Of a DNA stretch of 61,709 nucleotides, positions 1,590-4,349 are shown in pieces. The stretch comes from Candidatus Peregrinibacteria bacterium (GTDB lineage Bacteria > Patescibacteriota > Gracilibacteria > UBA1369 > PNNO01). The translations under genes and the position numbers were made by a program. Positions within the stretch are counted from its first letter, which is position 1. Every line of letters starts with the position of its first letter. Below the pieces are notes generated by a model, which worked only from the letters and a program-made list of their open reading frames with translations, made no database searches and was not told the origin of the DNA. The stretch spans positions 1 to 61,709 of the forward strand of contig JAFGJT010000011.1 of the NCBI GenBank assembly GCA_016928915.1. Reading direction: 5' to 3'.

Positions 1590-4259
1590 TTACATTCGAA
1601 GTGGCACTTCAATACCAAGTATTTTTAAGCCCTCGCGCAGCACGCGTGAAACCGCTTTTACTATGTTAAGTCTGGCGAGTTTTACATGTTTTGACTCGGC
1701 CTGAAGCACTGAAACCGAATTGTAAAAATTATTGAATTTTTGCGCGAGCTCGTATAAATAGTTTGATAAAATATTTGGCTTAAACTCATCGGCCGCAAGC
1801 ATCAGGTATTCCTGAAATTTTAAGAGGTCGCGCGCCACCGCCTGCTCGGTCGGGTGTTCAAACGGCTTCAGGCCGTCGTTTATCCCGCCGGCGTTTTCAA
1901 TGGCTTCAAACAAATCTATCTGCGGACTGTTTTCATCAACCTCAACTTTTTTTCTTCCCCTCGGCTGTTTATTCATATCTTTATTCATTTCATCATATTT
2001 CCGTAAAATGCTTTCAGCCCGCGCCGCAGAGTACTGCAAATATGGCGCGCTGTTTCCCTCCACGGAAAGCATTTTATCCCAGTCAAACATTATATCCGTA
2101 AGCCTGTTCTGGCTTAAAATGTTGTATTTGATCGAGCCTATTGCAACCATTCGCGCAACATTTTCTTTTTCTTTTTTCTTTAGCTCCGCGCTTTTTTCCT
2201 CAACTATTTTTAATGCCCTTTCGTATCCCTCTTTTAAAAGATCTTCAAGAAGAATCACATTGCCTTTTCGGGTGCTCATTGACCTGTCGGGCAGGCGCAT
2301 TCTTCCAAATGAAACATGCTCAAACCGGGCGCTTTGGTACCCGAGCATTTTTGCGGTTTCAAAAAGCTGTTTAAAGTGCAGACTCTGCGCCATATCAACA
2401 ACATAAATTATCAGCTGCGGATCCCATCTTTTTATTCTGTAATCAATTGTGGCAAGGTCACGGGTTGAATAAAGGGTTGCGCCATCGGATTTTTTAAGCA
2501 TATATGGCGGCAGATCCGTATTTGCAAATTCCACAATCAAGGCACCGCCCTCCCCCTGTTTTATAACTCCTTTTTTTAGCCCTTCCTCGATAATCGGCTC
2601 CATTTTGTCGTTGTAGTAACTCTCGCCGATATATTCGTCAAAATGAATACCCAAAGTCGCATATGTCTTTTCAAGATCAGCGATACTCAATTCCTTAAAC
2701 CATGTCCAAAGCTCCATGTTTTCCTGATTTCCCTCCTCCATTTTTTTAAATTCCTCGCGCGCCCTGTCTTCAAGAGTTGCGTCCTGCTCGGCTTCCTCGT
2801 GAAATTTTACGTAAAGTTTTAAAAGTTCCGGAACAGGATCTTTTTCTATAATTTTTTTATTGCCCCAATGTTTATAGGCATATATCAATTTGCCGAACTG
2901 CGTTCCCCAGTCCCCAAGGTGATTGTCGCCGATTATTTTATACCCCAGAGCCTTGTAAAGGTTATATAAAGCCTGCCCTATAATTGTTGAAAGAAGATGA
3001 TGCACGCCCAACGGTTTTGCAATATTGGGAGCTGAAAAATCAATTACAACAGTGCTGTTCCCCCCGTAAGTGTTATCGTAAAGCTGCTGCTCCTCGGCGA
3101 AATCTTTAACTTTTATCTGCATCCAGCCCTGCGCGATTTTAATATTTATAAAACCCGGAAGAACCGCTTCCACGCTTCCTATAAACTGAACGGGTTCAAT
3201 ATTTTTTATAATTTCCTCCGCGATTTTTAGCGGCTCTTTTAAAAGCTGCTTGGCCAGTTTTAAAGCTATGGAGCATGCGTAATCACCGTGCTCGGCGTCC
3301 TTGGGGTATTCAACGGCCAGTTCCTGAATGTCGGCTTCGGGAAACGCTTTTTGAGCCGCCTGTTTTAAAACTTCGGTAAGTTTTGCCTTTAAAGTGTATC
3401 TGTCAACCGGACCGGGAAGACCATCGGATGGTTCGGGACCATCGGATGGTGCCGGACCACCGGATGGTGCCGCAGCCTGTATTGCTTCTCCCGTTTCCCC
3501 TGTCCTCTCTTTATACAATTCTTCCTTAATCTCCTGCGGAATTGCTATAATTGCGGTTGTTTGCGGTTTAACGGGCTTTTTATTCTTTGATTCATACTCC
3601 AAAAGACCCGTTACACCAAAATCTTTCTCTTTTCTTGGAAATTTAACTATATCATCCTCGAATTCATCGCCTCCGCAGTATTTTTTAACCATCTGCGCAA
3701 GCTCATGCAGCTGCATTTTCAAGGCTTCATCACTAAAAATCCCCAAATTTTCTATAATAAAAACGGCATTCTTTGTGCTTAAATTAAAAGAACCCCTTTT
3801 AAACTGCTCGCTGTTCCATTTTTTTGTAAGATCATCGCCCTGGTCGCGGTAAAATATGCTTTTTTTGTCGTATTCAAGCACTATATCACCGTAAATATCA
3901 TCAAGGCTGAAGCCTATTACCGGTGCCTGCCATTTGACCATGTAGTAATCGCGTATTCTGCTTAGATTATCCGTAAAAGGCACATCTTTGCCGCTTAATA
4001 CCGAAGAAAGCAGAGATTCAAGGCATGTTTTATATGTTTTGCCTCCTATTTCCTTAAAAACCGTTCTCCAGTTGGATATTTTGGGTTCATTTTCGGGACT
4101 TTTATTTTTATACTGTTTTAAGGTCTGAGCGCGCAGACCGTCAAACAGCTGCTTTAAAGGTGTGCTTTTTCTCGTATTATCGAGCTTTTTCGCCACCAGT
4201 ATCCCGAATGAGAGGGAAGGATATTTTTCGCTTAATTCTTCATTGATAATTAATCTCAT
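1590..4259 (-). CDS. argS: Arginyl-tRNA synthetase fused to an N-terminal B3/B4 domain
   Basis: Class I enzyme charging tRNA-Arg with arginine. The C-terminal ~600 residues are a complete ArgRS: Add-1-type N-domain (about 285-385), Rossmann catalytic core, KMSKS-like MSTRKGN and a DALR anticodon-binding end. The first ~215 residues instead match the B3/B4 fold of the PheRS beta subunit and solo COG3382 proteins (WRTVFKEIGGK; LSRIRDYYMVKWQAPVIGF; NAVFIIENL). A linker with three P-S-D-G-type repeats joins them. The HIGH motif, usually HVGHLRS, reads GVHHLLS (residues 418-424), so the first His and Gly are changed. I chose the ATG at 4259; codons upstream to 4340 are hydrophobic non-conserved sequence. 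The usual ArgRS length is 550-580; this is 889. Confidence 0.93.
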   Translation of the reverse strand: MRLIINEELSEKYPSLSFGILVAKKLDNTRKSTPLKQLFDGLRAQTLKQYKNKSPENEPKISNWRTVFKEIGGKTYKTCLESLLSSVLSGKDVPFTDNLSRIRDYYMVKWQAPVIGFSLDDIYGDIVLEYDKKSIFYRDQGDDLTKKWNSEQFKRGSFNLSTKNAVFIIENLGIFSDEALKMQLHELAQMVKKYCGGDEFEDDIVKFPRKEKDFGVTGLLEYESKNKKPVKPQTTAIIAIPQEIKEELYKERTGETGEAIQAAAPSGGPAPSDGPEPSDGLPGPVDRYTLKAKLTEVLKQAAQKAFPEADIQELAVEYPKDAEHGDYACSIALKLAKQLLKEPLKIAEEIIKNIEPVQFIGSVEAVLPGFINIKIAQGWMQIKVKDFAEEQQLYDNTYGGNSTVVIDFSAPNIAKPLGVHHLLSTIIGQALYNLYKALGYKIIGDNHLGDWGTQFGKLIYAYKHWGNKKIIEKDPVPELLKLYVKFHEEAEQDATLEDRAREEFKKMEEGNQENMELWTWFKELSIADLEKTYATLGIHFDEYIGESYYNDKMEPIIEEGLKKGVIKQGEGGALIVEFANTDLPPYMLKKSDGATLYSTRDLATIDYRIKRWDPQLIIYVVDMAQSLHFKQLFETAKMLGYQSARFEHVSFGRMRLPDRSMSTRKGNVILLEDLLKEGYERALKIVEEKSAELKKKEKENVARMVAIGSIKYNILSQNRLTDIMFDWDKMLSVEGNSAPYLQYSAARAESILRKYDEMNKDMNKQPRGRKKVEVDENSPQIDLFEAIENAGGINDGLKPFEHPTEQAVARDLLKFQEYLMLAADEFKPNILSNYLYELAQKFNNFYNSVSVLQAESKHVKLARLNIVKAVSRVLREGLKILGIEVPLRM
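3414..3467 (-). repeat. Three 18-bp tandem repeats in the argS linker
   Basis: Three in-frame 18-bp units encode PSGGPA, PSDGPE and PSDGLP. Each DNA unit carries the small palindrome CCATCGGATGG or CCACCGGATGG. The unit is a multiple of three, so copy number could vary without breaking the gene. The repeats lie in the linker between the B3/B4 and ArgRS modules. Confidence 0.8.
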
Positions 4260-4349
4260 GGCAGAAAGATACCAGATATTGAATTTGTCCGCAATTTTTG
4301 GTACAATATAAAGATTTACAAATAAAATACAAATTAACACAAAAGTACA

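Follow-up and report, generated by a model that had tools for sequence, protein, structure and literature searches.

To our knowledge, arginyl-tRNA synthetase (ArgRS), like TyrRS and TrpRS, is not generally counted among the synthetases that have a post-transfer editing domain. What, then, is a B3/4 domain doing at the N-terminus of an ArgRS in the stretch of Candidatus Peregrinibacteria DNA analysed here (61,709 nucleotides, contig JAFGJT010000011.1, hereafter the window)? The original prediction placed a PheRS-type B3/B4 domain ahead of a complete ArgRS, gave no strand, and proposed that it could edit, bind tRNA or clear a non-canonical amino acid such as canavanine. The frame lies on the minus strand and is made up as follows:

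1590–4259, minus strand: B3/4–ArgRS fusion gene (ATG at 4259, stop at 1590–1592, 889 residues).
3627–4259, minus strand: CtdA-type B3/4 domain, residues 1–211, by hhalign, PDB profile search, AF2 model and fold matches.
3906–3917, minus strand: IGFS, residues 115–118, at the place of the CtdA-type GGED, by alignments and motif counts.
3852–3866, minus strand: site of an 18-residue deletion near residues 132–136, where the GxEPF loop is gone, by alignment of the window's family.
3804–3827, minus strand: TKKWNSEQ, residues 145–152, at the place of the CtdA-type CRRWNWRE/Q, by alignments and motif counts.
3393–3626, minus strand: flexible linker, residues ~212–289 (pLDDT below 50 at 222–285 in the full-length AF2 model).
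3135–3383, minus strand: ArgRS N-terminal domain Arg_tRNA_synt_N (PF03485), residues 293–375, by Pfam.
2079–3092, minus strand: ArgRS catalytic domain (PF00750), residues 390–727, by Pfam, with VHHLL (419) and MSTRKG (661).
1593–2039, minus strand: DALR anticodon-binding domain (PF05746), residues 741–889, by Pfam.

Residues 291–889 form a complete bacterial ArgRS, with a TIGR00456 score of 474.1 bits against a cut-off of 261.65 and all three Pfam domains; we take VHHLL and MSTRKG to be the HIGH and KMSKS equivalents. The protein thus shares its three ArgRS domains with bacterial ArgRS and differs from it by approximately 290 extra N-terminal residues. In the full-length AF2 model (mean pLDDT 77), the folded parts are joined via the very-low-confidence stretch 222–285, and the B3/4 domain and the synthetase are probably connected through a flexible tether of about 75 residues. 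Near-repeats occur in the linker at window positions ~3405–3475 and encode PSGGPAPSDGPEPSDG.

The identity of the N-terminal domain would be missed by Pfam and single-sequence searches alone. Indeed, residues 1 to ~215 have no Pfam B3_4 match at E ≤ 1 (the PF03483 gathering score being 29.3 bits), residues 1–211 match no NCBIfam model, and a single-sequence phmmer search gave a weak match to CtdA (PDB 9f7e, E = 0.062). Fused relatives from families f5, f13 and f14 pass the PF03483 cut-off; those of f1, the window's own family, and of f2 miss it. Family profiles settled the matter: a profile of six members of the window's family aligned with freestanding CtdA-type proteins over 213 columns (hhalign probability 99.9, E = 2.3e-34), versus 1.2 for a control with a stretch of ArgRS, and a PDB hmmsearch with the family profile had CtdA 9f7e as its top match (E = 5.9e-5). 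The AF2 model of residues 1–233, the structure prediction that had been called for, is confident and compact (pLDDT 87.7, pTM 0.87). Its predicted fold belongs to the B3/4 superfamily, far above unrelated structures, and is nearest to CtdA 9f7e (Z 22.4; 2.5 Å over 202 residues), versus Z ~13.5 for PheRS beta (bacterial PheRS ~11–13.5) and ~5.6 for the first rows of other families.

By profile and predicted fold, the N-terminal domain is a B3/4 domain of the CtdA lineage, not of the PheRS type. A B3/B4 domain ahead of a full ArgRS was accordingly borne out, whereas PheRS-type editing as a first reading was dropped. The guess of canavanine proved apt because the domain belongs with CtdA, a canavanyl-tRNAArg deacylase. 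CtdA deacylates canavanyl-tRNAArg without needing ArgRS and spares Arg-tRNAArg, and the ArgRS of its bacterium discriminates against canavanine only ~13-fold (Hauth et al. 2023, PMC10018355). The window domain resembles CtdA (PDB 9f7e, 9mkl) in whole-domain fold, in sequence profile, where CtdA is nearest, and in its tie to tRNAArg; CtdA is freestanding, whereas in the window the domain is joined to ArgRS and is without the motif residues of GGED, GxEPF and WNWR. Likeness to the PheRS beta B3/B4 editing domain (PF03483), which matches other fused families, is at the level of the fold superfamily; the window domain differs from it by lacking a PF03483 match, by its synthetase and by having nearer relatives among CtdA-type proteins.

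The fold held in common with PheRS raises the alternative of editing in trans on a different tRNA, as with PheRS B3/4 and Tyr-tRNAPhe, and a search for PheT in the assembly to which the window belongs gave nothing at E ≤ 0.001. However, a high-scoring PF03483 place is present in 58 of 59 genomes, including all six other f1 members; these places are presumably PheT, and the absence from the window's assembly is thus probably an assembly gap. As CtdA is nearest in both sequence and fold, and fusion and adjacency concern argS, we hold editing in trans to be very improbable.

Conservation of the fusion in relatives, whose absence would have refuted the original prediction, was amply borne out. In a survey of the window's order (89 genomes of Candidatus Peregrinibacteria/Peribacteria relatives, the window's own included), in which B3/4 and argS places were joined by hand, the fusion was found in 44 genomes and five of 16 families: f1 (7/7), f2 (11/13), f5 (1/1), f13 (6/8) and f14 (19/30), a count that includes an f1 genome whose gene has an in-frame TAA, as well as some genes cut by contig ends. 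Among the seven f1 genes, one is broken by the TAA, which lies inside the domain (G001, a metagenome-assembled genome (MAG)), and one is cut at a contig end. Seven further genomes, all of f14, carry split yet adjacent genes, 2–3 bases apart at the four loci measured. In the other eight genomes of these five families, one or both parts had no match or lay at contig ends, and no ArgRS fusion was found in the other 11 families (30 genomes).

This distribution bears on whether the fusion could be an assembly chimera or the product of a mis-called start. The named relatives (12 loci) are MAGs of Candidatus Peregrinibacteria and Peribacteria, plus two less closely named MAGs, a point in favour of a chimera; however, the same architecture recurs across the order, including on contigs of 998 kb and 313 kb, which rules out chance or chimera. 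Starting from an in-frame GTG at 4340 would lengthen the protein by 27 residues, but the alignment of relatives begins at the same residue, the ATG at 4259. We regard both artefacts as practically dismissed.

The window, a second fused locus (L098) and a split locus (L063) have common neighbours, namely an fn3 protein, a metallo-hydrolase and an EPSP-synthase-family gene (presumably murA, by reading); fused and split forms thus occupy one syntenic locus. Judging from the split versions, the two parts do not seem to need a covalent link. Beside the fusion gene in the window are a Phage_integrase-family gene (480–1412) and a tRNA-Ser gene (1470–1560), and a similar recombinase (L104, 9413–10279), by reading only, adjoins a distant fused locus. 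Some genomes have a second, unfused ArgRS besides the fused or split B3/4–ArgRS (G004:C75:21115-22812, G029:C2, G036:C2 and C4, G438:C18); in f13 genomes this second ArgRS is divergent, with frames of 650–670 residues.

No description of a B3/4–ArgRS fusion was recognised in the literature searched, mainly that of open-access journals; within that literature, this is an assembly of known parts in an apparently new architecture. The nearest precedent is the PheRS B2 domain fused to CPR TyrRS, likewise a PheRS-beta-type domain at the N-terminus of another synthetase in CPR bacteria; it differs in that B2 is an RNA-binding OB fold rather than an editing domain, and in being carried by TyrRS rather than ArgRS (Mukai et al. 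2017, PMC5370408).

Whether the window's domain could still edit depends on its pocket. CtdA-type rows have GGED, GxE and CRxWNWR in common, with one or two exceptions at single places; from this invariance and an alignment with PheRS, we infer that these columns line the pocket. The Glu of GGED is found in both plasmid CtdA-type rows, in 8/9 ArgRS of f5/f14, in 3/3 ArgRS of other classes and in 9/14 rows labelled free, a label that includes three rows starting at contig ends which may be cut fusions (F_G182, F_G050, F_G313). Split f14 rows keep GxE and WN, with Glu in one of five, Lys in three and His in one. Family f13 retains EPF without GGE, and f2 has neither the loop nor the WN motif. 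In the window's family, all four rows have Phe for the Glu of GGED, a deleted GxEPF loop and WNSE for WNWR; in the window itself, GGED has become IGFS and CRRWNWR has become TKKWNSE. Missing pocket residues were named as a ground for refuting the original prediction, and in the window's family they are largely missing, GGED and CRRWNWR being replaced and the GxEPF loop deleted, whereas other fused families retain them. Editing is thus well supported as the ancestral role and not for the window protein, its pocket residues being replaced or deleted.

With the GxEPF loop and most CtdA motif residues lost, editing in the window's family may be altered or lost altogether. Three readings are left: another substrate, RNA holding, or slow decay. 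According to the second, a domain that once edited would now only bind tRNA or stabilise the synthetase, like other appended domains of aminoacyl-tRNA synthetases. This fits a fold and a fusion that persist despite the replaced residues and deleted loop, and it fits f2, where the 11 fused genomes keep a domain with still greater motif loss; domain retention therefore does not need the CtdA pocket. However, at the pocket sites the window's family shows strong conservation of residues of its own, which looks more like re-tooling than decay. The missing CtdA motif is, moreover, no bar to catalysis by itself, since PheRS B3/4 edits without that motif. We consider RNA holding alone unlikely and slightly favour editing or re-tooling over it; some editing activity in the window's own protein has a little under an even chance.

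The third reading, in which the domain no longer has a function and is decaying but has so far escaped loss, draws on the in-frame TAA of G001, on motif loss in f13, f1 and f2 relative to f5/f14, and on the 11 families without an ArgRS fusion. It is opposed by the presence of the domain ahead of ArgRS in every f1 genome, one stop-interrupted, by the compactness of the AF2 model and by selective constraint. We compared dN and dS in 13 pairs in all, dS being saturated in most of them beyond four close f13/f14 pairs. For these four, the values for the domain versus the ArgRS part were 0.018 versus 0.027 and, for G036/G029, 0.054 versus 0.045 in f13, and 0.013 versus 0.040 and 0.047 versus 0.088 in f14. 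In f1, the domain gave 0.148 and 0.094 in the two of four pairs with a measurable ratio, and constraint there is only roughly measured because dS is near or past saturation. In f2, identity of the domain versus ArgRS was 48 versus 70% in one pair and 56 versus 58% in the other. A functionless remnant appears to us decidedly improbable.

The domain is not confined to ArgRS. In a sample of 379 genomes of Patescibacteria, 44 near-full-length places were found at E ≤ 1e-17, and all were classified. Weaker matches (E > 1e-13) were PheT in all three cases inspected (L176–L178, from gene order and letters, with Pfam for L176 only), so that only places at E ≤ 1e-17 were counted. The 44 places comprise 27 fusions in 24 genomes, 14 freestanding domains (four beside argS) and three cut by contig ends. 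Fusion partners are ArgRS (11), class II LysRS (6), class I LysRS (4), TyrRS (4, one of which, in G406, is a short frame that stops within the synthetase), TrpRS (1) and MetRS (1); the domain is N-terminal on ArgRS, TyrRS and TrpRS and C-terminal on LysRS and MetRS. Three genomes (G095, G328, G261) each have two different fused synthetases.

Some of these architectures are composite. The TrpRS fusion (L153, G113:C91, 1166–3412, minus strand; first labelled TyrRS in a quick tree and in the motif table, and TrpRS by NCBIfam) has two distinct domains of editing type, a YbaK-type tRNA_edit domain and B3/4, ahead of the synthetase in a 749-residue frame. Class II LysRS is joined to B3/4 and HD in L140 (G328:C23, 1627–4947, plus strand) and L137 (G095:C25, 965–3793, plus strand), and the G328 enzyme adds DUF2000, making a four-part synthetase. 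In L138 (G342:C1), class II LysRS is followed by a PheT-like tRNA_bind (B2-like) stretch and then by B3/4. The MetRS fusion (L154, G261:C3, 2746–5166, minus strand) bears B3/4 at its C-terminus. One genome of a distant family (G343) has argG, argH, a freestanding CtdA-type B3/4 gene, a gene for a 567-residue protein and argS in a one-strand row with gaps of 4, 19, 30 and 9 bases; the 567-residue protein (L183, G343:C14, 7209–8909, minus strand) gives weak HTH-like matches only.

We then placed 58 domains in a careful tree without an inferred root, leaving out 12 rows: G113, three partial or long rows (K2_G159, F_G182, M_G261), and eight near-copies or extras (R_G030, R_G052, Fop_G049, R_L106, R_G029, R_G046, R_G039, R_G022). 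Two rows starting at contig ends, which may be cut fusions (F_G050, F_G313), count as free. The ArgRS domains of the order, whether fused or split, form a single clade (100/99), TyrRS domains form another (95/86), and class I and class II LysRS domains are interleaved in a third (99/94), which includes one contig-end-cut row. Class I and class II LysRS are unrelated enzymes, and the single clade of their domains suggests an association of the domain with lysine or tRNALys rather than with the scaffold. Partner labels changed 12 times on the tree versus a mean of 34 after shuffling, and none of 200 shuffles was as low, near-copies favouring such clustering. Domain clades thus mostly seem to track the amino acid of the partner synthetase, one exception being G035, a class II LysRS with a CtdA/Arg-type domain. 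A second ArgRS group (G076, G223, G294) lies near the plasmid CtdA-type rows, and ArgRS probably acquired the domain more than once.

The place of the GGED Glu varies along with the partner. LysRS rows have Phe or Tyr there in 11/11, with G035 apart (Asp); rows labelled TyrRS have Tyr, His or Phe in 9/9, one of these rows being the TrpRS of G113; and the MetRS row has His. A tentative reading, to which we give somewhat less than an even chance as a whole, is that B3/4 in Patescibacteria would be a portable, amino-acid-specific proofreading cassette, re-tooled in the window's family and editing in cis for ArgRS, both LysRS classes, TyrRS, TrpRS and MetRS, with the third GGED residue helping to set the substrate (Glu for Arg, Phe/Tyr for Lys, Tyr/His for Tyr and His for Met).

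For the window itself, the account that we moderately favour is that of a complete ArgRS with a tethered CtdA-lineage B3/4 domain, ancestrally a hydrolase of misacylated tRNAArg, the pocket having been rebuilt in the window's family and the activity probably changed or reduced. The ancestral domain would have hydrolysed tRNAArg misacylated with an arginine analogue such as canavanine and just released from the synthetic site; tethering would make this post-transfer editing in cis, on the product of its own ArgRS. Hydrolase activity, substrate and action on that product are all three what we infer. In the window's family, the rebuilt pocket with its deleted loop may serve another substrate, or only hold tRNA. 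Amino-acid-scavenging CPR cells would be expected to meet odd amino acids.

In favour of this account we count the CtdA homology and fold, the fused or split linkage to argS and the arginine row of G343, together with the retention of CtdA motif residues by other fused ArgRS, domain dN/dS below that of the ArgRS part in three close pairs, and partner clustering in the domain tree. Against it, the window domain lacks most CtdA motif residues, G001 has its TAA, f1 and f2 miss PF03483, and constraint in f1 is but roughly known; the Arg-type domain on the LysRS of G035 speaks against strict amino-acid tracking. Nothing ties these organisms to canavanine. Control of CtdA by guanidine riboswitches is frequent, not universal, but guanidine-I was found in none of the 89 order genomes, which also counts against the account, and a search of the window for the other guanidine riboswitch classes gave none.

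That relatives of the domain occur on several charging enzymes suggests, from sequence comparison, a portable error-checking part. If the cassette reading is true, editing in cis would extend to synthetases not usually credited with it. In any case, the set provides candidate deacylases for analogues of lysine, tyrosine, tryptophan and methionine. Six synthetases carry B3/4 domains whose motifs range from intact through altered to eroded, and a single locus offers both fused and split forms; this natural series allows direct tests of which analogues endanger small bacteria that scavenge amino acids, and of how the specificity of editing evolves.
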